Below are positions 53,737 to 63,815 of a stretch of 64,000 bases of DNA, piece by piece (the first letter of the stretch is position 1; each line of letters starts with the position of its first letter). Position numbers and translations under genes: made by a program. The DNA lies in NCBI RefSeq assembly GCF_019966595.1, contig NZ_JAINFJ010000001.1, positions 124,001-188,000 on the forward strand. The letters are read 5' to 3'. The notes below the pieces were generated by a model, which searched no databases, was not told the DNA's origin, and was given only the letters and a program-made list of their open reading frames with translations. This DNA comes from Oricola indica (GTDB lineage Bacteria; Pseudomonadota; Alphaproteobacteria; Rhizobiales; Rhizobiaceae).

Positions 53737-54777
53737 ATGAAAACTCTGAAACTGGCGGGTGCTGCCGTACTCGGCGCCGCTATCGCACTTGCGGGCACGT
53801 CCCTGGCATCCGCCTAGGAATTCACCTTCAAGCTTCACCAAATGCTCCCGGCCACGGCGCCGGCACAGACCCGCATGCTCGAGCCCTGGGTAAAGCAGGT
53901 CGAGGAAAACTCCGGCGGTCGCGTGAAGATCGAGATCTACCCGGCGATGACCCTCGGCGGCACCCCGCCCGAACTGGTACAGCAGGCGCGTGACGGCGTG
54001 GTCGATCTCATCTGGACCGTTAACGGCTACACGCCGGGCCAGTTCCCGCGTACCGAGGTCTTCGAACTGCCGGGCGTATTTCTGAACGACATCAAGGCAG
54101 CCAACCTCGCCATGTACGACATGTTCGAGGACAGCCTGAAGGACGACTACAAGGGCCTCGAGGTTATGTGGCTCCACGTCCATGCTGGCCAGGCGATCAT
54201 GTCGGTCGACAAGGAGATCCGTTCTCCCGCGGACACCGAGGGTCTCAAGATCCGTATCCCGAACCGCACCGGCGCGTGGGTGATCGAGGCGCTTGGCGCA
54301 TCGGCGCTTGCGATGCCTGTTCCGGAAGTGCCCAGCGCGCTTTCCAAGAAGGTCGTCGACGCGACACTGCTTCCCTGGGAAATCATCCCGGTGATCAAGG
54401 CTCAGGAGCAGATCGACTACTTCATCGAAGGCCATGACGAGACGCGTTTCGGTACCACCACTTTCCAAGTGTCCATGAACCAGGCACGCTGGAACAGCCT
54501 GCCGGACGACATCAAGAAAGCGTTCCGCGACGCATCGGGCCGCGACTGGTGGGGTAAGGTCGCCGAGGCATGGCGCGCCGGCGACGACTTCGGCATCAAG
54601 ATGGCTACGGATGCGGGCAAGACCCACATCATGCTAACCGAAGAGGAAACGCAGGTGTTTCTCGACACGCTCGTTCCGGTGCAGGAACGCTGGATCGAGG
54701 AAGTCAACGGCAAGGGCATCGACGGCGCCGGTCTCGTGGCCAAGGCCAAGGAACTGATCGCCAAGAACGCCGAATAG
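53737..54777 (+). pseudogene. dctP: TRAP transporter substrate-binding protein (DctP family) interrupted by an in-frame amber codon
   Basis: ATG 53737 with SD AGAGGAGG encodes a complete signal peptide (MKTLKLAGAAVLGAAIALAG, then TSLASA), then TAG at 53815-53817 replaces codon 27. The frame then continues without any further defect for 319 residues: EFTFKLHQMLPATAP, RTEVFELPGVFL, LKIRIPNRTGAWVIEALGAS (the conserved R-I-P ligand region), VSMNQARWNSLPDDIKKAF. CAG (Gln) to TAG is a single transition and gives the common ASA-Q-E cleavage site. An internal ATG (53842) would make a leaderless cytoplasmic protein. So this is a fresh nonsense mutation, a sequencing error, or a read-through site. dctQ and dctM downstream are intact. 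Confidence 0.85.
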
Positions 54778-54784
54778 GAACGAT

Positions 54785-55294
54785 ATGGCATCCAATGTCG
54801 AATCCGGGACGAGGCTTCACAGCCTCGTCCTTCGCTTGTCCACCGGCTGGGCGATCCTCGGAGGATTTGTTCTGCTGGCCGTCGTTGTTTTCAACGTCGC
54901 ATCCGTGGTCGCCGCTGCGGTCATGAACAAGTCGCTGCCGGGCGACTTCGAAATCACGGAACTCGGCGTTGCCATCGCCGCATTCGCTTTCCTTCCCTAC
55001 TGCCAGATCGCCGGGCTCAACGTCACCGCCGACATTTTCACGGCCGCTGCGTCGCGCTTCTGGCTTGCGGTCTTCTCGCTGCTCGGCGCACTGGTGGCCC
55101 TGGGTTTCGGTGGGCTGCTGCTCTGGCGCATGTATTACGGCATGCTCGACCAGCGCACATACGAGACCTCGACGGCAATATTGCAGATACCGCTGTGGTG
55201 GGCATACGGCGCATGCCTGCTCTCGCTTGCCCTGCTGGTTCTCGCCAGCTTCGCATCGGTGGTCAATTCCCTGAACGCCATGGTCAAGGACTAG
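54785..55294 (+). CDS. dctQ: TRAP transporter small permease (DctQ family)
   Basis: 169 residues with four transmembrane helices. GDFEITELGVAIAAFAFLPYCQIAG is the DctQ signature around helix 2, followed by NVTADIFTAAASRFWLAVFS. It starts 7 bp after the dctP stop. It joins DctM to form the Na+-driven permease. Confidence 0.9.
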   Translation: MASNVESGTRLHSLVLRLSTGWAILGGFVLLAVVVFNVASVVAAAVMNKSLPGDFEITELGVAIAAFAFLPYCQIAGLNVTADIFTAAASRFWLAVFSLLGALVALGFGGLLLWRMYYGMLDQRTYETSTAILQIPLWWAYGACLLSLALLVLASFASVVNSLNAMVKD

Positions 55295-55298
55295 CACG

Positions 55299-56654
55299 AT
55301 GGACCCCATCACTCTCGGCGTCACGGGCCTCATCGTTCTCATCGCACTGATTGCGATCCGAATTCCGATCGCCTACGCCATGATCCTTGTCGGCGGCGTC
55401 GGGGTCATGCTCATCAACGGCCCGCTGCTCGTCCTGAGCCAGTTGAAGACGCTCGGCTGGGGCGTGTTCTCCAATTACGGGCTCTCGGTCGTCCCCATGT
55501 TCGTACTGATGGGTGCGCTAGCCTCACGCGCCGGTCTCAGCCAGGCGCTGTTTCGCGGCGCCAATGCATGGCTCGGATGGATGCGCGGCGGCACGGCAAT
55601 GGCCGCCATTGCAGGCTGCGCGGGCTTTGGCGCGGTCTGCGGCTCGTCACTGGCCACCGCGTCCACGATGGGCAAGGTCGCCCTGCCCGAGTTGCGGCGC
55701 TTCAACTATTCCGGCGCCTTGGCAACCGGATCGCTGGCCGCCGGCGGCGTGCTCGGCATCCTGATCCCGCCTTCGGTGGTGTTGATCATCTATGCGCTGA
55801 TCGTCGAAGCGAACATCGTGACCATGTTCGCTGCGGCAATGCTGCCCGGCCTGCTCGCGGTCGTCCTGTTCATCCTGACGATTGCGATCTACGTCGCCAT
55901 CAAGCCGGACGCCGGACCACGTCACACTGGCGTCAATGTCGGCGAGTTCAGGGACGCCACAATCGGACTGATCCCGGTCATGATCATCTTCGGTCTTGTC
56001 CTCGGCGGCATCTATGGCGGCTTCTTCAATCCGACGCCAGCCGCGGCGGTGGGCGTGGCGCTGGTCTGGATCTATGGTATCTTCACGCGCACGATCGGCA
56101 TCCGCGAACTCATGGACTCCCTCAAGGAGACGGCCGGCACGACTGGCATGATCTATCTGATCCTGCTCGGCGCGGAACTGATGAAGATTTTCATGAGCCG
56201 CATCGGCCTGCCGCAGGCAACCGCCGAATGGATGGTCAATTCCGGTTTCGAGCCGATGGTCGTGCTCATCCTGTTGCTCCTGGCTTTGATCCTGCTCGGC
56301 TGCCTGATGGACAGCCTTTCGATGATTCTTCTTGTCATCCCTTTCTTCTGGCCGGTGCTGCTGGAGTTGAATGGCGGCATCTATCAGGGCGCGGAAGGCG
56401 CTGGCTTTGGAATGAGCTCCGAGGAGTTGAAGATATGGTTCGGCATCCTCGCACTCATCGTTGTCGAACTGGGGCTTATTACGCCTCCAGTGGGTATGAA
56501 CGTCTTCGTTATCTCCGCCTTGGCAAAAGACACGCCCATGAGTGAAACTTTTAAGGGTGTTATGCCATTCTTCGCCGCGGAAATGATCCGGGTGGCCATT
56601 CTTCTGGCTTTCCCGGCAATAACGCTCTGGTTGCCACGGCTTCTGAGCGGATAA
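55299..56654 (+). CDS. dctM: TRAP transporter large permease (DctM family)
   Basis: 451 residues, about 12 helices. Signature stretches: GVFSNYGLSVVPMFVLMG, GCAGFGAVCGSSLATASTMGKVALPEL, GSLAAGGVLGILIPPSVVLIIYAL and LITPPVGMNVFVISALAKD. It catalyses Na+-coupled uptake with DctPQ. The closing VISALAKDTPMSETFKGVMPFF is typical. Confidence 0.94.
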   Translation: MDPITLGVTGLIVLIALIAIRIPIAYAMILVGGVGVMLINGPLLVLSQLKTLGWGVFSNYGLSVVPMFVLMGALASRAGLSQALFRGANAWLGWMRGGTAMAAIAGCAGFGAVCGSSLATASTMGKVALPELRRFNYSGALATGSLAAGGVLGILIPPSVVLIIYALIVEANIVTMFAAAMLPGLLAVVLFILTIAIYVAIKPDAGPRHTGVNVGEFRDATIGLIPVMIIFGLVLGGIYGGFFNPTPAAAVGVALVWIYGIFTRTIGIRELMDSLKETAGTTGMIYLILLGAELMKIFMSRIGLPQATAEWMVNSGFEPMVVLILLLLALILLGCLMDSLSMILLVIPFFWPVLLELNGGIYQGAEGAGFGMSSEELKIWFGILALIVVELGLITPPVGMNVFVISALAKDTPMSETFKGVMPFFAAEMIRVAILLAFPAITLWLPRLLSG

Positions 56655-56681: not shown

Positions 56682-58394
56682 ATGAAGCACACTGCTTCGG
56701 GTGACATTACGGCTGGCGGTGCGATTTTCACGCGCCTGAAAGCCCTCGGCGTCGACTACGTCTTCGCCAATTCAGGCACGGATTTTCCACCGATCATCGA
56801 GGGGCTGGCCGAGGCCGCCGCCAAGGATATCGACCTGCCGAAGGCGCTCATTATCCCGCACGAGCACGCGGCGCTCGGCATGGCGCATGGCTACTACCTG
56901 ATGAGCGGCAAGGCGCAGGCCGTCATGCTGCACACCAATGTCGGCCTTTCGAACGGCGCGACCGGTGCCATCAACGCCGCCTGCGAACAGATCCCGATGC
57001 TGCTGATGTCCGGCCGCACGCCGGTGACGGAGGCGGACCGTTTCGGTGCACGGACGGTACCGATCGGCTGGGGTCAGGAAATGCGCGACCAGACCGCTCT
57101 GGTGCGCGAGTCCTGCAAGTGGGACTACGAACTGAAGTTCCCCGAGCAGATCGCCGGCCTGCTCGACCGCGCGCACTCCATCGCCAACTCGACGCCGAAG
57201 GGTCCGGTCTATCTGTCGCTGCCGCGCGAGACATTGTGCGAGCCGACACCTCGCGACGGCCTTGAAGGGCCGACGACGATCCAGCCGGTCACAGGCGCCG
57301 CCAATCCCGCCGATATCGCAACCGCCGCAAAGTGGCTTGCCGAAGCGAAGAACCCGCTCGTCATCGCGCAACGCGGCGCGGGCGACCGCAAGAGCTTCAA
57401 GGCCTTCGCGAAATGGGCGGAGGACTGGGGCATTGCCGTCTGTTCATGGTGGGCGACGCATCTCGCGATCGCGACCGACCATCCCTGCCATGTCGGCGCC
57501 GACCCGGGGCCTTGGATGGAGAAGGCGGATGTCGTCGTGGTGCTCAACTGCATCGCCCCCTGGTGGCCCGACAAGCACAAGCTCAACGAGGGTGCAAAAG
57601 TCATCAATATCGGTCCGGATCCCGTTTTCAGCCGTTTCCCGGTCCGCAATTTCCCCTCCGATCTCACGATTGCGGGTGAAACTTCGTTGACTGTTCCGGC
57701 ACTGATCGACGCCATGGAGGAGCTTCGGCGCGACGACAGCGCGATCGCCGCCCGCCGCCAGCATCTTGCGGCGGCTTCGAAGCATAATCGCGAAACGCTC
57801 GCCGAAAAGGCGACATCGGACACGGCACGCGGCATCACCAAGGCCCATGTCAGCCATTGCCTCGGCGAGGCGCTGGACGGCATCAAGTCGAGCGTCTTTT
57901 CCGAACTCGGGACGTCGCTCGGCACACTGAAACGCACCGACCACAATTCGTGGTTCCAGGAGCCGCACTCCGGCGGCCTCGGATGGAGTTTTCCCGCGGC
58001 GCTGGGCGCCCAGCTTGCCGAACCGGACCGCGTCTGCGTCGCCACGATGGGCGACGGTTCCTACATGTTCTCCAACCCCACGGCCTGCCACCAGATCGCC
58101 GAGGCGCTCGAACTGCCCGTGCTGATCATCATCCTCAACAACGAGGAATGGGGCGCCGTGCGTGCTTCGGTCACCGGCATGTATCCGAGCGGCTTTGCCT
58201 CGCGCGCCAATGAAATGCCGCTGACGGCCCTGAAACCCTCGCCCGACTTCACCAACACCGCTGCAGCCAGCCGCGCGTGGGCGCGCAAGGTCACCGACCC
58301 TGCGGAGCTTCCGAAGGTTCTGGAACAGGCGCTGAAGGTCGTGCGTGAAAACCGGCGCACAGCACTACTCGACGTGCGTGTCCTGCCGGACTGA
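56682..58394 (+). CDS. Thiamine-diphosphate-dependent enzyme (2-oxoacid decarboxylase/acetolactate-synthase-like)
   Basis: 570 residues, last gene of the TRAP operon. Activating Glu61 in IPHEHAALGMAHGYY; PYR-domain LHTNVGLSNGATGAINAA, similar to benzoylformate decarboxylase; central domain with PVYLSLPRE and PVFSRFPVRNF; ThDP/Mg motif GDGS at 457-460 leading to LNNEEWGAV. The substrate is unknown. The convergent operon encodes a benzaldehyde/vanillin-dehydrogenase-like enzyme, so a 2-oxo acid to aldehyde to acid route is suggested. The middle-domain FAD-binding residues were not examined. Confidence 0.8.
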   Translation: MKHTASGDITAGGAIFTRLKALGVDYVFANSGTDFPPIIEGLAEAAAKDIDLPKALIIPHEHAALGMAHGYYLMSGKAQAVMLHTNVGLSNGATGAINAACEQIPMLLMSGRTPVTEADRFGARTVPIGWGQEMRDQTALVRESCKWDYELKFPEQIAGLLDRAHSIANSTPKGPVYLSLPRETLCEPTPRDGLEGPTTIQPVTGAANPADIATAAKWLAEAKNPLVIAQRGAGDRKSFKAFAKWAEDWGIAVCSWWATHLAIATDHPCHVGADPGPWMEKADVVVVLNCIAPWWPDKHKLNEGAKVINIGPDPVFSRFPVRNFPSDLTIAGETSLTVPALIDAMEELRRDDSAIAARRQHLAAASKHNRETLAEKATSDTARGITKAHVSHCLGEALDGIKSSVFSELGTSLGTLKRTDHNSWFQEPHSGGLGWSFPAALGAQLAEPDRVCVATMGDGSYMFSNPTACHQIAEALELPVLIIILNNEEWGAVRASVTGMYPSGFASRANEMPLTALKPSPDFTNTAAASRAWARKVTDPAELPKVLEQALKVVRENRRTALLDVRVLPD

Positions 58395-58454: not shown

Positions 58455-59912
58455 TTAGAAGACCGGCGGGAACGGCCGTCCGCCGCGATCGAGCGTGATC
58501 CAGCGCGTTTCGGTGAATGTCTCCATCGACCACCTGCCGCCATGCTTACCCGAACCGGATGCCTTGAAGCCACCGAACGGGACATGCGGCTCGTCGTTCA
58601 CGGGCGAGCAGTTGACGTGGCAGTTGCCCGTATCGAGACCGTTGACGATCGCAAGCGCCCTTCCCTCGTCCTCGGACATCACGCCGGCCGTCAGGCCGTA
58701 TTCGCTGTCATTGGCGAGCCGCACCGCTTCCTCGTCGCTCGAGACCTTGAAGATCGAGCAGACCGGACCGAATGTTTCTTCCTGGTACATCAGCATGTCC
58801 GGCGTCACATTGGCGAACACCGTCGGGCTGATGAAGCGCCCGTCGATATCGCCACCGGCGAGCACGGTCGCACCCTTGGCCTTGGCGTCGTCGAAATGGC
58901 GCTTGATCCTTTCGGCGGCGCGGTCGTTGATAACCGGGCCGAGGATGTTTTCCTTCTGCGTCGTTTCGCCGACCGTCAGTTTCTTCACGCGCGGAATGAA
59001 CTTCTCGATGAAGTCGTCATAGACATCCTCGTGAACGATCAGGCGTTCGATCGACATGCAGATCTGCCCCTGGTGCATGAACGAACCGAAATTCGCCGCC
59101 TGTACCGCGCGCTCCATGTCCGCATCGTCGCACACGATCATCGAGTTCTTGCCGCCGAGCTCCACGCAGCACTTCTTCAGATGTGCGCCGGCCTTGGCCG
59201 AAACCAGCCGACCGACAGCCGTCGATCCGGTGAACGATATGCCCTTCACCAGCGGGTTCTCGATCAGTTCGTCTCCGACCGCGGCGACGCTTTCGCGCGA
59301 ACAAGTGACGACATTGAGCACGCCCTTCGGCAGGCCGGCTTCCTCGAAAATCTCGGCCCAGAGCAGGCCGCCGATATAGGGCGTGTCCTCTGACGGCTTG
59401 AGCACGATCGTGTTACCGGCGACCAGCGGGAACAGCATGCCGCGACCGGTCAGGATAAGCGGGAAGTTCCAGGGGCTGATCACGGATACGACACCCATCG
59501 GACGCCGGACAGCCATGGACAGCTTTCCGTATTCCGACGGCATGACATCGCCGATCGAGCCGTAATTGGCAGCTGCGGCAGCCGGGAAGAGTTCGGCCGT
59601 GTAGCCGGTCTCGAACATCGCCTTGCCGAACCAGCCACCGCCCTCGGCCATCACCGCCTCGGCGATTTCCTGGCGGCGTTTCTCGAAGATCTCGCCGGCT
59701 TTGATCAGGAGATGCGAACGCTGGTTGAACGGCATGGCCGCCCACTCGGGAAACGCCTCATGCGCCGCCTCGATCGCTTTCCTCGTGTCCTCGACCGAAG
59801 CATCCGGGACATTCGCCCAGATCGATCCATCCGAAGGGTTGTAGTCAGGGAAGGTCTCCGACTTGGTCGTCCAGCCGCCTCCGATATACATTCCATCCAT
59901 TACGCGAGCCAT
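58455..59912 (-). CDS. NAD(P)-dependent aldehyde dehydrogenase, benzaldehyde/vanillin dehydrogenase-like
   Basis: 485 residues from ATG 59912 (SD GGAGA within an upstream ATG-initiated frame that is poorly spaced). Glu251 in CVELGGKNSMIV and Cys285 in FMHQGQICMSIERLIVH are the catalytic pair; SPWNFPLILTGRGMLFPLVAGN is the cofactor strand. The end GSGKHGGRWSMETFTETRWITL is typical of the benzaldehyde, vanillin and salicylaldehyde dehydrogenase branch. It follows livF2 by 31 bp and is the last gene of Liv operon 2. Substrate not provable. Confidence 0.85.
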   Translation of the reverse strand: MARVMDGMYIGGGWTTKSETFPDYNPSDGSIWANVPDASVEDTRKAIEAAHEAFPEWAAMPFNQRSHLLIKAGEIFEKRRQEIAEAVMAEGGGWFGKAMFETGYTAELFPAAAAANYGSIGDVMPSEYGKLSMAVRRPMGVVSVISPWNFPLILTGRGMLFPLVAGNTIVLKPSEDTPYIGGLLWAEIFEEAGLPKGVLNVVTCSRESVAAVGDELIENPLVKGISFTGSTAVGRLVSAKAGAHLKKCCVELGGKNSMIVCDDADMERAVQAANFGSFMHQGQICMSIERLIVHEDVYDDFIEKFIPRVKKLTVGETTQKENILGPVINDRAAERIKRHFDDAKAKGATVLAGGDIDGRFISPTVFANVTPDMLMYQEETFGPVCSIFKVSSDEEAVRLANDSEYGLTAGVMSEDEGRALAIVNGLDTGNCHVNCSPVNDEPHVPFGGFKASGSGKHGGRWSMETFTETRWITLDRGGRPFPPVF

Positions 59913-59943: not shown

Positions 59944-61260
59944 TTATCGCATCGCCTTTTCGGCGAGTTTCTCGGCCTTTCGGGCCAATTTTGCAGCTTT
60001 CTTTGCAAGCTTCTTTCGCTTGCCCTTCAGCTTGATCTTCCTGCCGTCGCCGTTGATATCCGGTGATATCGGATTGGCGTCCCGGACGGCGCTCACGTGG
60101 TTCTTCTGGATCGCCTCCGCGCGCCTCACGAAGTCGGCAACCGGAAGGTCGGGCGCGACCGGAGCGGAAACATGAACAGCGCCAGAAGGCGCGGATGGCC
60201 TCGGAGCAGACTGCTTCGAAACCGGGACGGACTGGATCACTACGCGATTGGCTTCGACATACGCACGCTGGCGGCGCACTGCCTTGTCGGCGAAATCCGC
60301 CGCCCGCCTGCTGAGTTCACTGGCCTGGCTGGACATGATGATCGGTTTTCCCCCCGTCTCCAATTGTTGTGCGGCCGGATGACCATGCCCGTTGGCGTGG
60401 CCTTTCGAGCGCTCGCGAAGCGTCACGACATGATTGCGCTGTATGCGTGTCGCGCGCTCCACCAATGTCGCAACGGAGTCGTCCTCTGCGTCATTGAGCA
60501 AACCGATATCGGCGATGTCGTAGCGCGCTGGCGGCATTGTGGGTGCGGATGCCGCACCTCCGAGATACGCCGCCTGAACCGCCGGATCGCGGATCAGTTC
60601 GGCGCCCGTACCCTCGCCCGTGATGTGCCCGTTCTCGATCAGGTATCCACGGTCCGCGATAGCGAGGCTCTGCTTGGCGTTCTGTTCGACCAGAAGGATC
60701 CCGACGCCGGTTTCGCGCACCGCCTTCAGAGACTTGAACAGATCCTTGGTCAGCAAAGGCGACAGGCCGAGCGACGGCTCGTCCAGCATGAGGATAGACG
60801 GATTGGACATCAGCGCGCGGCCGATGGCGACCATCTGCTGCTCGCCGCCGCTCATGGTCCGTGCGATCTGGGAACGGCGTTCGCCAAGGCGCGGAAACAG
60901 TCGCAGGATCTCCTCGCGGCGTTTCGCCTCGTGCTTGCGCGCCTGCGGGCCGTATGCGCCGAGTTGCAGGTTCTCGGCCACTGTCATCTCGCCGAAGATG
61001 CCCCGGCCTTCCGGCACCAGGGCCAGCCCCGCCTCCACGATCCTGTGCGGCTTGGCATTGGTGATCTCTTCGCCATCGACGAGAATTTGCGTACCGCCGC
61101 TCGCGGTCACCAGGCCACCGATGGCTTTCAGAAGCGAACTCTTGCCCGCGCCGTTTGCGCCGAGGATCACACAGATTTCACCCTTCGCGACGCGGATGGA
61201 CACGTTTTCGAGTGCCCGGTGCGCGCCGTAGGAGACGGACAGTCCTCGGACTTCAAGCAT
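59944..61260 (-). CDS. LivF-like ABC ATPase fused to a ~200-residue repeat-bearing C-terminal extension
   Basis: 438 residues; LivF proteins are normally about 235. Residues 1-235 are a complete LivF: Walker A GANGAGKSS (34-42), signature TMSGGEQQMVAIGRAL (135-150), Walker B LMLDEPSLGLSP, ending AYLGG. Residues 236-438 are unlike any ABC module I know: low-complexity linkers plus an 18-residue repeat, LVERATRIQRNHVVTLRE (266-283) and FVRRAEAIQKNHVSAVRD (377-394), 9 of 18 identical; a third RRAADFADKAVRRQR-like segment at 318-332; and a tail from about 404 of K/A repeats (KKLAKKAAKLARKAEK). The extension ends exactly at the stop with no frameshift visible. The livF of operon 1 stops at AYLGV without it. 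Confidence 0.85.
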   Translation of the reverse strand: MLEVRGLSVSYGAHRALENVSIRVAKGEICVILGANGAGKSSLLKAIGGLVTASGGTQILVDGEEITNAKPHRIVEAGLALVPEGRGIFGEMTVAENLQLGAYGPQARKHEAKRREEILRLFPRLGERRSQIARTMSGGEQQMVAIGRALMSNPSILMLDEPSLGLSPLLTKDLFKSLKAVRETGVGILLVEQNAKQSLAIADRGYLIENGHITGEGTGAELIRDPAVQAAYLGGAASAPTMPPARYDIADIGLLNDAEDDSVATLVERATRIQRNHVVTLRERSKGHANGHGHPAAQQLETGGKPIIMSSQASELSRRAADFADKAVRRQRAYVEANRVVIQSVPVSKQSAPRPSAPSGAVHVSAPVAPDLPVADFVRRAEAIQKNHVSAVRDANPISPDINGDGRKIKLKGKRKKLAKKAAKLARKAEKLAEKAMR

Positions 61261-61987
61261 CGTCGGCTCCCAGATATGCCGTGACGACCTCGGGCTGGTT
61301 CAGGACGTCATGCACCGAACCGTCCGCGATTTTCACGCCGCTGGACATCACGACACAGCGGTCGCAGAGCGAGCGGATCGCATCCATGACGTGCTCCACC
61401 ATGATGATCGTACGTCCGTCCTCGCGCAGGTCGCGGATGAGTTCGATGCCGATCTTGAGTTCGCTCGGATTGAGACCGGCGAGCCATTCGTCAAGCAGGA
61501 GAAGACGCGGATTGGATGCCAGCGCCCGCGCCAGTTCAAGCCGCTTTTGGTCGATATAGGTCATCGATCCGGTCGGCGCGGAACCACGCCCGCCGAGACC
61601 GACCCGCTCCAGCAGGACTTCCGCCTCGCGGTAGGCATCGTCGCCCCAGGCGCGAATATGGCCGAACACCGCGCCCGCGATCACATTCTCCACCGCGCTC
61701 AGCGACGGCAGGATGCGCACGAGCTGGAAGGTCCGCGCAACGCCGCGCTGCGAAATCTTGTGCGCCGGCAAGCCGGATATCGCCTCTCCGTCGAGACGGA
61801 TTGTCCCGGACGTCGGTTTCAGCGCGCCGGAGATGAGGTTCATCATGGTCGTCTTGCCGGAGCCGTTCGGCCCGATCAGGCCAATCAGTTCGCTTTGCTT
61901 GACCGTGAAATCGACATCGTTGATGGCGACGAGGCCGCCGAACGCCTTGCGAACCGTCTCGACCGAAAGAAGCGCCCTGCCCGTCAT
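61253..61987 (-). CDS. livG: Liv-type ABC ATPase (LivG-like), operon 2
   Basis: 244 residues. Walker A GPNGSGKTT, signature MTYIDQKRLELARAL (non-canonical LSGG, as usual in LivG), Walker B LLLLDEWLAGLNPSEL, where the Trp after Glu replaces the common Pro. Overlaps livF2 by 8 bp and livM2 by 4 bp. Confidence 0.9.
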   Translation of the reverse strand: MTGRALLSVETVRKAFGGLVAINDVDFTVKQSELIGLIGPNGSGKTTMMNLISGALKPTSGTIRLDGEAISGLPAHKISQRGVARTFQLVRILPSLSAVENVIAGAVFGHIRAWGDDAYREAEVLLERVGLGGRGSAPTGSMTYIDQKRLELARALASNPRLLLLDEWLAGLNPSELKIGIELIRDLREDGRTIIMVEHVMDAIRSLCDRCVVMSSGVKIADGSVHDVLNQPEVVTAYLGADDA

Positions 61988-62952
61988 TCCGCCGCCTCCG
62001 GCACTGGCGCCACCGTGCCCGCCTTGCCGGCACGAGGCTTACGAAAATCCTCGATCAGCCCGATCACGCCGCGCGGCAGGAAGTAGACGATAGCCATGAA
62101 GGCGACGCCGATCAGGAGGCTGGTGTGGTTAGGGAAACTCGACGAGATCCTGTCGAACAGGATCGTGAAGGGAATTACCCCGAGCAACGGCGCCCAAAGC
62201 CGGCCGGTCCCGCCGAGCAGCGCCATGATCACCACCTGGAACGAGATCACCGGATTGAAGGCGGATGGCGGTTCGACATAGGCGAAACGCGGCGCGAGGA
62301 TTGCACCGGTAATGCCGATGAACGCGCCGGAGACCATGAACAGGATGACCTTGGAGCGGGCGACGTCGATGCCGACATGGCGCGCAACCGTCTCGTCATT
62401 GCCGATGATCCGCATGGCAAAACCCAGCCGCGAACGGTTGATCAGCCATCCGGTCGCATAAACGATCGCGGCCAGTGCGAGCAGCATCCAGAAGATGTGC
62501 TTCTCCGTCATGTCCGTGAAGACATAGAGACCGACCGACGTGGTGAAATTGGTCTGCAGCCACGTCACGACCTGGCGCACGAGTTCCGCAAGGCCAAGCG
62601 TGAAGATCACGAAGTACACGCCGGACAAGCGCAGCGTCGCCACCCCGACGAGCCCGGCCAGGATGGCAGCCGCAATGCCCGCGATCGCCAGCAGGAGCGG
62701 GAATGGCAGGCTGTCGATACCCAGCCCAACCGTATAGGTGCCGATCCCGAAAAACGCAGCCGTGGCCAGCGAAATGTAATGCGTTGGTCCGGAAAACAAC
62801 GTCCACGCGGTGCAAAGCACGGCGTACATGGCGATGTTGACCGAGAGCGAGAGGTAATAACCGTCATCGACGAGCGGAATCGCAGCCGCAGCGCCAAAAC
62901 CAAGCAGGGCGAAGGCAGCGACACGCTGTTCCTTTTCGCTGAACCGGGTCAT
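61984..62952 (-). CDS. livM: Liv-type ABC permease (LivM-like), operon 2
   Basis: 322 residues. YISLATAAFFGIGTYTVG near residue 57 is the LivM signature; GFAMRIIGNDETVARHVGIDVARSKVILF is the coupling loop. About nine helices. A 30-residue charged C-terminal tail follows PRGVIGLIEDF. Overlaps livH2 by ATGA. Confidence 0.9.
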   Translation of the reverse strand: MTRFSEKEQRVAAFALLGFGAAAAIPLVDDGYYLSLSVNIAMYAVLCTAWTLFSGPTHYISLATAAFFGIGTYTVGLGIDSLPFPLLLAIAGIAAAILAGLVGVATLRLSGVYFVIFTLGLAELVRQVVTWLQTNFTTSVGLYVFTDMTEKHIFWMLLALAAIVYATGWLINRSRLGFAMRIIGNDETVARHVGIDVARSKVILFMVSGAFIGITGAILAPRFAYVEPPSAFNPVISFQVVIMALLGGTGRLWAPLLGVIPFTILFDRISSSFPNHTSLLIGVAFMAIVYFLPRGVIGLIEDFRKPRAGKAGTVAPVPEAAE

Positions 62953-63815
62953 GCTGTCTGCCTTCCGAAGATACCCTGCGGACGGATCAGCAGCACAATG
63001 ATGAAAAGCGTATAAGTCGCCGCCAGCGTCAGGCCGGGGTCGATCAGGCTTGCAACCGCTGTTTCCGCGAGGCCAAGCAGCAAAGCAGCCAGGACCGCAC
63101 CGCGCACGTCACCCACTCCGCCCATGATCACGATGATCAGCGCCTTCATGGTGAAGATCACGCCCATCGACGAGTTGAAGGTGTAGAAAGTCGACAACAG
63201 CGCGCCACCAGCGGCCGTCAGAGCGCCACCCAGCGCGAAGGCGAAGGCCGAAGCGCGCGGCACATTGATGGCGACAAGGCTCGCGGAAGACGGGCTGACC
63301 GAGACCGCGCGGATCGCCGTGCCGTAACGCGTCCGGTAGAGGAAGAGGTAGAGACCGGCGGCGATCACAACGGCGGCGCCCAGCGCAACGATGCGGTTGA
63401 GCCCGTAATTGGCGCCAAGGATGCGCACCGGCTCGGACAGGAAATTGTAGGAGAAATAGCTGCCGCCGAAGACCAGCAGCATCACGCCCTGCATGATGAA
63501 CATAAGCCCGAAGGTCGCGAGGATGCTGTCGACTTCCAGTTGACCTCGGTTCTTCGCGCGGTCGACCAGCGGCTTCATCGCGTAGACATAGATCAGCCAG
63601 TTGAGCAGGAAGGCCGCCGGCGCGATGATGGCGATGCCGATCACGGGATTGATCGATGCGGCCGTGTAGAGCCAGAACGCGCAGAAACACGCCAGGACGA
63701 GGTTTTCTCCGTTGGCGAGATTCATGATCCGGGCGACGCCGTATTGCAGCGTCAGCCCGAGCGCTATCAGCGCATAGGTGCCTCCCAGCACCGTTCCCGT
63801 GATCAGAATATCCAT
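62949..63815 (-). CDS. livH: Liv-type ABC permease (LivH-like), operon 2
   Basis: 288 residues. GTVLGGTYALIALGLTLQYG and MNLANGENLVLACFCAFWLY are the LivH-type start, with N-G-E in place of the common H-G-E. VIMGGVGDVRGAVLAALLLG near residue 235. The first permease after the binding protein. Confidence 0.9.
   Translation of the reverse strand: MDILITGTVLGGTYALIALGLTLQYGVARIMNLANGENLVLACFCAFWLYTAASINPVIGIAIIAPAAFLLNWLIYVYAMKPLVDRAKNRGQLEVDSILATFGLMFIMQGVMLLVFGGSYFSYNFLSEPVRILGANYGLNRIVALGAAVVIAAGLYLFLYRTRYGTAIRAVSVSPSSASLVAINVPRASAFAFALGGALTAAGGALLSTFYTFNSSMGVIFTMKALIIVIMGGVGDVRGAVLAALLLGLAETAVASLIDPGLTLAATYTLFIIVLLIRPQGIFGRQTA

Follow-up and report, generated by a model that had tools for sequence, protein, structure and literature searches.

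We found that the LivF-type ATPase of an ABC importer continues into a C-terminal tail of 203 residues and that, among the bacteria examined, such tails occur only where one particular aldehyde dehydrogenase, called ALDHa here, is encoded directly behind livF. This restriction suggests that the importer holds ALDHa at its inner mouth. In the reading that we favour, with a probability of about 0.55, the tail is a disordered scaffold resembling that of RNase E and keeps ALDHa at the importer. The usual picture of an ABC importer is a pump that delivers its substrate to the bulk cytoplasm; if the reading is true, an importer subunit with a docking arm for the first catabolic enzyme would couple transport and metabolism physically.

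The tailed LivF and its operon

Positions refer to the window, the whole stretch of 64,000 nucleotides that was analysed. The gene order on the minus strand is livH, livM, livG, livF with its tail, and ALDHa:

62949..63815, minus strand: LivH permease (Pfam BPD_transp_2)
61984..62952, minus strand: LivM permease (Pfam BPD_transp_2)
61253..61987, minus strand: LivG, second importer ATPase, without a tail (sequence similarity, gene order recurring in relatives)
60556..61260, minus strand: LivF nucleotide-binding domain, residues 1-235 (Pfam ABC_tran, 103.2 bits, cut-off 25; 1ji0)
59947..60555, minus strand: C-terminal tail, residues 236-438 (in-frame continuation; related tails elsewhere)
58458..59912, minus strand: aldehyde dehydrogenase ALDHa, putative partner of the tail (Pfam Aldedh, 532.6 bits; stop codon 58455-58457)

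The livF open reading frame (61260..59944, minus strand) encodes 438 residues. Its ABC_tran score identifies the first part as an ABC ATPase, and the top solved fold match is 1ji0 (50% identity); the fold matches listed, 50 of 1721, span 224-253 columns, which corresponds to the ATPase part. The top-scoring NCBIfam family, LivF (PRK11614), stays below its cut-off (249.9 versus 441 bits), hence the protein is a LivF relative rather than the curated equivalog. LivG, LivM, LivH and a binding protein are encoded together with it. The gene for this binding protein is located just past the window end, and its four solved matches are amino-acid binding proteins only. The genes that come next in this genome, outside the window, are livK, another aldehyde dehydrogenase (ALDHb) and, by eye, a divergent regulator-like gene. 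The best solved matches of ALDHa include, by their names, 4-hydroxybenzaldehyde, benzaldehyde, salicylaldehyde and vanillin dehydrogenases.

The LivF part closes at AYLGG (residue 235) and the frame runs on to a stop codon at 59946-59944, in agreement with a preliminary description of this DNA, made from the sequence alone, that had reported a normal LivF end followed by about 203 further residues. Seven other LivF-like loci of the genome extend 0-23 residues beyond the ATPase match. The tail ends 31 bases before the start of ALDHa at 59912, hence it does not represent ALDHa read in another frame; this start was placed by orthologues, and the longest open frame of the dehydrogenase begins further up, at 60008.

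Residues 236-438 alone gave no Pfam match at E ≤ 1, TOBE-like or MalK-like regulatory domains included, and the tail gave no match in a PDB sequence search and just two in NCBIfam, both far under cut-off. The preliminary description had also stated that no such ABC ATPase domain is known. For these three collections that holds; the tail is, however, not unique but belongs to a family of its own, as sequence comparison indicates (see below).

Association with ALDHa

LivF loci were chosen by similarity to the full protein including the tail, with L143 and L144 found by tail search alone; tailed loci are therefore enriched, while there was no selection for ALDHa. The neighbour sample of 101 loci was reduced to 98 rows by removing two duplicates (L132, L155) and one locus without LivF (L145), and three loci at contig ends (L038, L158, L191) were set aside from the association count. 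Among the remaining 95 loci, 42 have both the tail and ALDHa directly downstream, 53 have neither, and none has one alone; that is, ALDHa is the next gene in 42/42 tailed and 0/53 tail-less loci. In 41 loci, where the start of ALDHa was set by alignment, the spacing between the two genes is -11 to 293 bases, counted from the livF stop. In G129 each of the two genes is at the end of a separate contig, and adjacency was assumed. More distant loci of one set (43 of its 80; L053-L087, L089-L096) were kept outside the tree and the neighbour table, and these have at most 24 residues after LivF. A comparison of the tail with syntenic aldehyde dehydrogenase operons had been proposed in the preliminary description; in the 95 loci the pairing is without exception.

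The same correspondence is seen at the genome level. A close LivF (E ≤ 1e-78) is present in 47 of 247 genomes of the family, of which 27 are tailed, two carry a fusion to an aldehyde dehydrogenase (L130, L142) and the other 18 show no more than 11 residues in this place. The converse search with ALDHa as query (E ≤ 1e-165) returned 27 of the 247 genomes, the same 27. In the class search (385 genomes), ALDHa was found in four, namely the window's own, G273, G466 and G559, and the same four have a tailed LivF. Candidates were scored per genome, the best seven for LivF and the best six for ALDHa in the family and the best four for both in the class; the order-level sample around G273 consisted of one genome.

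ALDHb and a thiamine diphosphate (TPP) enzyme were considered as partners of the tail and rejected, their frequencies being alike in tailed and tail-less loci (26/42 versus 33/53 for ALDHb, 8/42 versus 9/53 for the TPP enzyme). Tail-less LivF genes are followed by ALDHb, by a fused ALDHb or by other genes, including a coniferyl-alcohol-dehydrogenase-like enzyme in L128 and L171. Five extra loci from a phylum search, outside the 95, have no true tail (L217 is a run-on) and ALDHb in all five.

In three loci, L045 (Hyphomicrobium sp. CS1BSMeth3), L130 (G084) and L142 (G140), LivF and an ALDHb-type enzyme share one frame of 755-792 residues. This single fused frame replaces the usual two genes, and all three are tail-less relatives.

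Repeats and predicted structure of the tail

The tail contains three helical copies of a motif, RAxxIQxxHVxxxR. The copies at residues 266-283 (LVERATRIQRNHVVTLRE) and 377-394 (FVRRAEAIQKNHVSAVRD) agree at 9 of their 18 positions. When the first 165 residues of the tail were shuffled 500 times, the BLOSUM62 score of this pair was never reached (0/500), and one shuffle contained an 18-mer pair with at least 9 identities. A motif HMM built without the window copies scores them at 22.7, 3.7 and 11.5 bits. The AlphaFold2 run, with 39 LivF orthologues in the alignment, predicts a firm ATPase followed by four tail helices (pLDDT block means about 75-95) on linkers largely below a pLDDT of 50:

60406..60474, minus strand: tail helix 1, residues 263-285, with motif copy 1 (266-283) (AlphaFold2, motif HMM, shuffles)
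60235..60330, minus strand: tail helix 2, residues 311-342, with motif copy 2 (323-340), the module most conserved in the genus (AlphaFold2, alignment)
60076..60141, minus strand: tail helix 3, residues 374-395, with motif copy 3 (377-394) (AlphaFold2, motif HMM, shuffles)
59950..60021, minus strand: Lys/Ala-rich C-terminal helix, residues 414-437 (AlphaFold2; end charge +12)

The three motif copies thus fall on the first three helices, and the last 40 residues carry a net charge of +12. The features that had been noticed beforehand are borne out: the 18-residue motif present twice exceeds chance by score, the looser third copy corresponds to residues 323-340, and the Lys/Ala-rich C-terminus is real and predicted to be helical. 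The copy at 323-340 is weak in the window itself (3.7 bits), and its orthologues form the best conserved stretch of the tail among six aligned relatives. When a motif profile was run on 31 genomes, its matches at E ≤ 1 in the window's genome were the three copies of this tail only; the profile and alignment contained the window's own copies. The prediction is of a mostly disordered tail in which short structured helical motifs are spaced by linkers.

Three types of tail

Tails in the 27 tailed genomes of the family are 122-398 residues long; the tail of G129 (152 residues) is cut by a contig end. We distinguish three types, whose names were coined in this analysis. Type i, found in the window's genus and its neighbours, has RAxxIQxxHV helices and usually a Lys-rich end. 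Type ii has an RAxxIQxxHV helix, then PSAFVGRYDPKAGxDPW, LNGSHGLIGHNSAG and a final RAxxIQxxHV helix. Type iii tails have a short helix related to this one (I.DLV..A) and another stretch resembling a helix (L...L.EIE.AA..A), and they often end in a basic VEVYRR. This type occurs in six genomes of the window's family, in three from other families of its class, and also on contigs with the labels Marivita, Citreimonas, Planktotalea, Rhodospirillales and others. Profile comparison relates types i and ii with 94% probability, while types iii and ii match weakly, at the motif, with 12.8%. Thirteen type ii tails had no Pfam match, and in Pfam neither these nor the window tail showed a sequence relation to known scaffold families. 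Among 18 type iii tails, three NCBIfam matches with one member each were rejected as chance-like. The net charge of the tail is positive in 39 of 41 loci; in the window it is +16, and that of ALDHa is -18.

Some tails carry further elements. Two type i tails (L143, L144; genomes G003, G005) add EHRRFYVPAGA-like repeats, four and three copies by eye, that are absent from the window tail. In the type ii tails L151-L154, L156, L157 and L159-L165, the stretches PSAFVGRYDPKAGxDPW and GLIGHNSAG are very conserved outside the motif helix and are perhaps separate docking motifs. L022 and L037 (contigs labelled as Oceanospirillaceae and Chromatiales MAGs) have a tailed LivF and ALDHa on contigs binned as Gammaproteobacteria, which reflects either horizontal transfer or misbinning.

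Flotillin and an alcohol dehydrogenase in type iii operons

An open comparison of neighbour clusters led to flotillin, a membrane scaffold protein that assembles membrane complexes; out-of-frame shadow ORFs that the comparison also raised were ignored. Of the 20 type iii loci, 19 have a flotillin gene behind ALDHa (L018, L020, L025, L027, L030, L032, L037, L039, L052, L088, L167-L170, L173, L174, L192-L194), compared with 0/22 type i/ii loci and 0/53 tail-less loci. The twentieth type iii locus, L022, has only 612 bases of sequence after livF. Pfam assigns flotillin in all five neighbour proteins tested. Between ALDHa and flotillin, at least 11 of the 20 type iii loci have a dehydrogenase gene (at least 40% similarity to the L027 copy), a lower bound because shorter or more diverged copies may be missed; the same dehydrogenase is present in 5/53 tail-less loci. 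Both copies tested (L027, L192) exceed the NCBI cut-off for coniferyl-alcohol dehydrogenase. The flotillin domain (PF15975) has matches in 18 of the 31 genomes searched and none in the window's genome or in 13 of 22 type i/ii genomes, hence the tail does not need flotillin.

A proposed scaffold for ALDHa and other possible roles of the tail

We propose that the tail, disordered for the most part, would act as a scaffold at the cytoplasmic side of the LivKHMGF-type importer, where its short amphipathic helices (RAxxIQxxHVxxxR and relatives) would serve as docking motifs. The docked client would be ALDHa, the enzyme encoded directly behind livF, so that the assembled importer would keep ALDHa at its exit. 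A reactive aldehyde, imported or made from an imported alcohol, would then be channelled to ALDHa and oxidised before it spreads, as in a transport metabolon. The substrate is probably an aromatic aldehyde, given the names of the solved matches of ALDHa and the alcohol dehydrogenase in type iii operons. The preliminary description had left several roles open, namely recruitment of the transporter to a polymer, nucleic acid or partner protein, or regulation of the ATPase; the pairing with ALDHa in 95 loci favours recruitment of a partner protein.

We count in favour of the scaffold the pairing by locus and by genome, the failure of ALDHb and the TPP enzyme to discriminate, the tree pairs described below, the LivF-dehydrogenase fusions and the flotillin operons, together with the helices on low-confidence linkers, the purifying selection, the motif that is confined to this tail in the window's genome and the combination of a basic tail with an acidic ALDHa. 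The weak motif match between types iii and ii and the low identity of tails within one genus count against it. We also modelled the tail of G001 and one ALDHa subunit as a single AlphaFold2 chain (35 alignment rows, all with ALDHa and six with the tail; the tool reports no contacts) and saw no sign of docking. The pLDDT block means in this chain were about 41-70 for the motif helices and 75-78 for the Lys-rich helix, versus about 75-95 in the LivF chain. The result counts against docking to a monomer, but as a test it is weak, since alignments and organisms differ and a single subunit was used. Aldehyde dehydrogenases of this kind are usually oligomers.

The higher confidence of the tail helices in the LivF chain, fair to high and above that in the ALDHa chain, would also fit a tail whose helices fold back on LivF or LivG, or pair with another tail, and so regulate ATP hydrolysis or cluster importers. 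C-terminal regulatory extensions are known on importer ATPases such as MalK, TOBE being such a regulatory domain. However, this explanation leaves the restriction of the tail to operons with ALDHa unaccounted for, as operons that are similar in other respects work with tail-less LivF from that clade; moreover, no known domain in Pfam matches the window tail or the type ii tails, and the listed fold matches cover the ATPase only. We regard it as unlikely.

Alternatively, the basic end and the Arg-rich helices might attach to a negatively charged partner, be it membrane lipid, RNA or DNA, and position the importer in this way, the tie to ALDHa being indirect. The charge of the last 40 residues and the KKRKKHKEA-like ends seen by eye in 11 of the 13 aligned type ii tails are in line with this, and PMC11964227 describes a membrane helix and RNA-binding motifs in the disordered domain of RNase E. 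Yet type iii tails whose ends are acidic (L025, L168, L169) or neutral (L037, L052, L173) keep the ALDHa link, and we consider such a role distinctly unlikely.

Possible shared inheritance of tail and ALDHa

Tail and ALDHa might also have joined the operon once and been kept or lost together through replacement of the operon end, with no interaction between them. We compared their distribution with a LivF tree built by a quick method from the ATPase part only (98 rows; 24 of 95 inner branches starred as well supported, 40 drawn open). Tail and ALDHa need six changes each on this tree. On starred branches there are three independent pairs, and tail and ALDHa differ together in 3/3 (p = 0.25), a number of pairs too small for significance to be attainable. 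With so few pairs, operon inheritance could make much of the association, and shared ancestry is a partial rival to the scaffold. As the whole explanation it is highly improbable in our view: the three tail types have diverged almost beyond recognition and yet the ALDHa link persists, a tail that shares no role with ALDHa should somewhere have been lost with ALDHa retained, and L127, L128 and L171, nested in the tailed clade, lack both the tail and ALDHa.

Conservation of the tail

A tail-only search of 61 genomes found related in-frame tails in four of the five other genomes of the genus and in one genome of another genus. A further match, in G055 (E 0.004), has two internal stops, and the stretch fetched for it (L145) has no LivF-like row, so it was dropped. 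Within the genus, identity over aligned residues is just 37-51% for tails and 80-91% for the ATPase part. The dN/dS ratios (10 pairs) are 0.21-0.45 for tails, rough values because the dS of the tails is high (1.2-2.3), 0.07-0.13 for the ATPase and 0.04-0.08 for ALDHa. By these ratios, the tail is under purifying selection.

A stop-codon loss or frameshift artefact is contradicted by these ratios, by the related in-frame tails of many genomes, by the conserved motifs and by the gap between the tail and the next gene, so that a functionless run-on frame is hardly credible here, even though one exists in G825 (L217:6353-8095, minus strand), where a LivF frame without a stop runs out of frame across the ALDHb gene. 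The preliminary description had named orthologues that stop after AYLGG, together with an unconserved extra frame, as grounds for dismissing the tail. Orthologues stopping near AYLGG do exist, and in the loci examined their operons lack ALDHa; where the tail is present, it is conserved.

Relation to known systems

RNase E consists of a conserved catalytic N-terminal part and a disordered C-terminal part of variable length and sequence, and short linear motifs of the latter, some of them helical, bind partners that include the metabolic enzyme enolase, according to PMC11964227. LivF is predicted to share this plan, with a conserved catalytic N-terminal part and a variable disordered C-terminal part bearing short motifs. 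It differs in that no sequence relation was found, that the host is an importer ATPase and that the partner is deduced from gene order. The complete ATPase domain and the LivKHMGF gene order are as in LivF/LivG of the branched-chain amino acid type. In contrast, where the operon has no ALDHa, the LivF relatives examined extend no more than about 25 residues past AYLGG, the exceptions being the three ALDHb fusions and the out-of-frame run-on of L217.

The type iii operons recall flotillin (SPFH) microdomains by the flotillin gene behind ALDHa, but the genome of the window has no match to this domain. Microcompartment encapsulation peptides, a short amphipathic helix with a flexible linker, gather enzymes that are often aldehyde dehydrogenases. 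The tail has the same helix-and-linker form; unlike these peptides, its motif is repeated and sits on a transporter. Microcompartment targeting was rejected on 0 matches to BMC shell proteins (PF00936) in the window's genome; of the 14 known genomes in the control search, two gave matches, those of E. coli and Synechococcus elongatus.

In the open-access library searched, which has few subscription papers, we recognised no description of such a tail or operon. The ATPase and the scaffold principle are known, and their combination is new as far as we recognise. More broadly, an importer ATPase with a fast-evolving disordered arm that collects a dedicated catabolic enzyme, and so deals with toxic aldehydes at the membrane, may be a new kind of transport metabolon, built in one lineage with flotillin and a coniferyl-alcohol-dehydrogenase-like enzyme, while in sister operons a fusion of LivF with an aldehyde dehydrogenase would serve this purpose; we give this wider picture a little less than an even chance. 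Study could start from the pairing of tail and ALDHa, from the fusions or from the flotillin operons, and the motif could serve as a tag that places enzymes at a transporter.

A TPP-dependent enzyme converges on ALDHa (56682-58394, plus strand; NF006203, 670.9 bits versus a cut-off of 456), and a relative of it lies near 17 of the 95 LivF loci. Upstream of the enzyme, at 53842-56654 (plus strand), are genes that by eye resemble those of a TRAP transporter.
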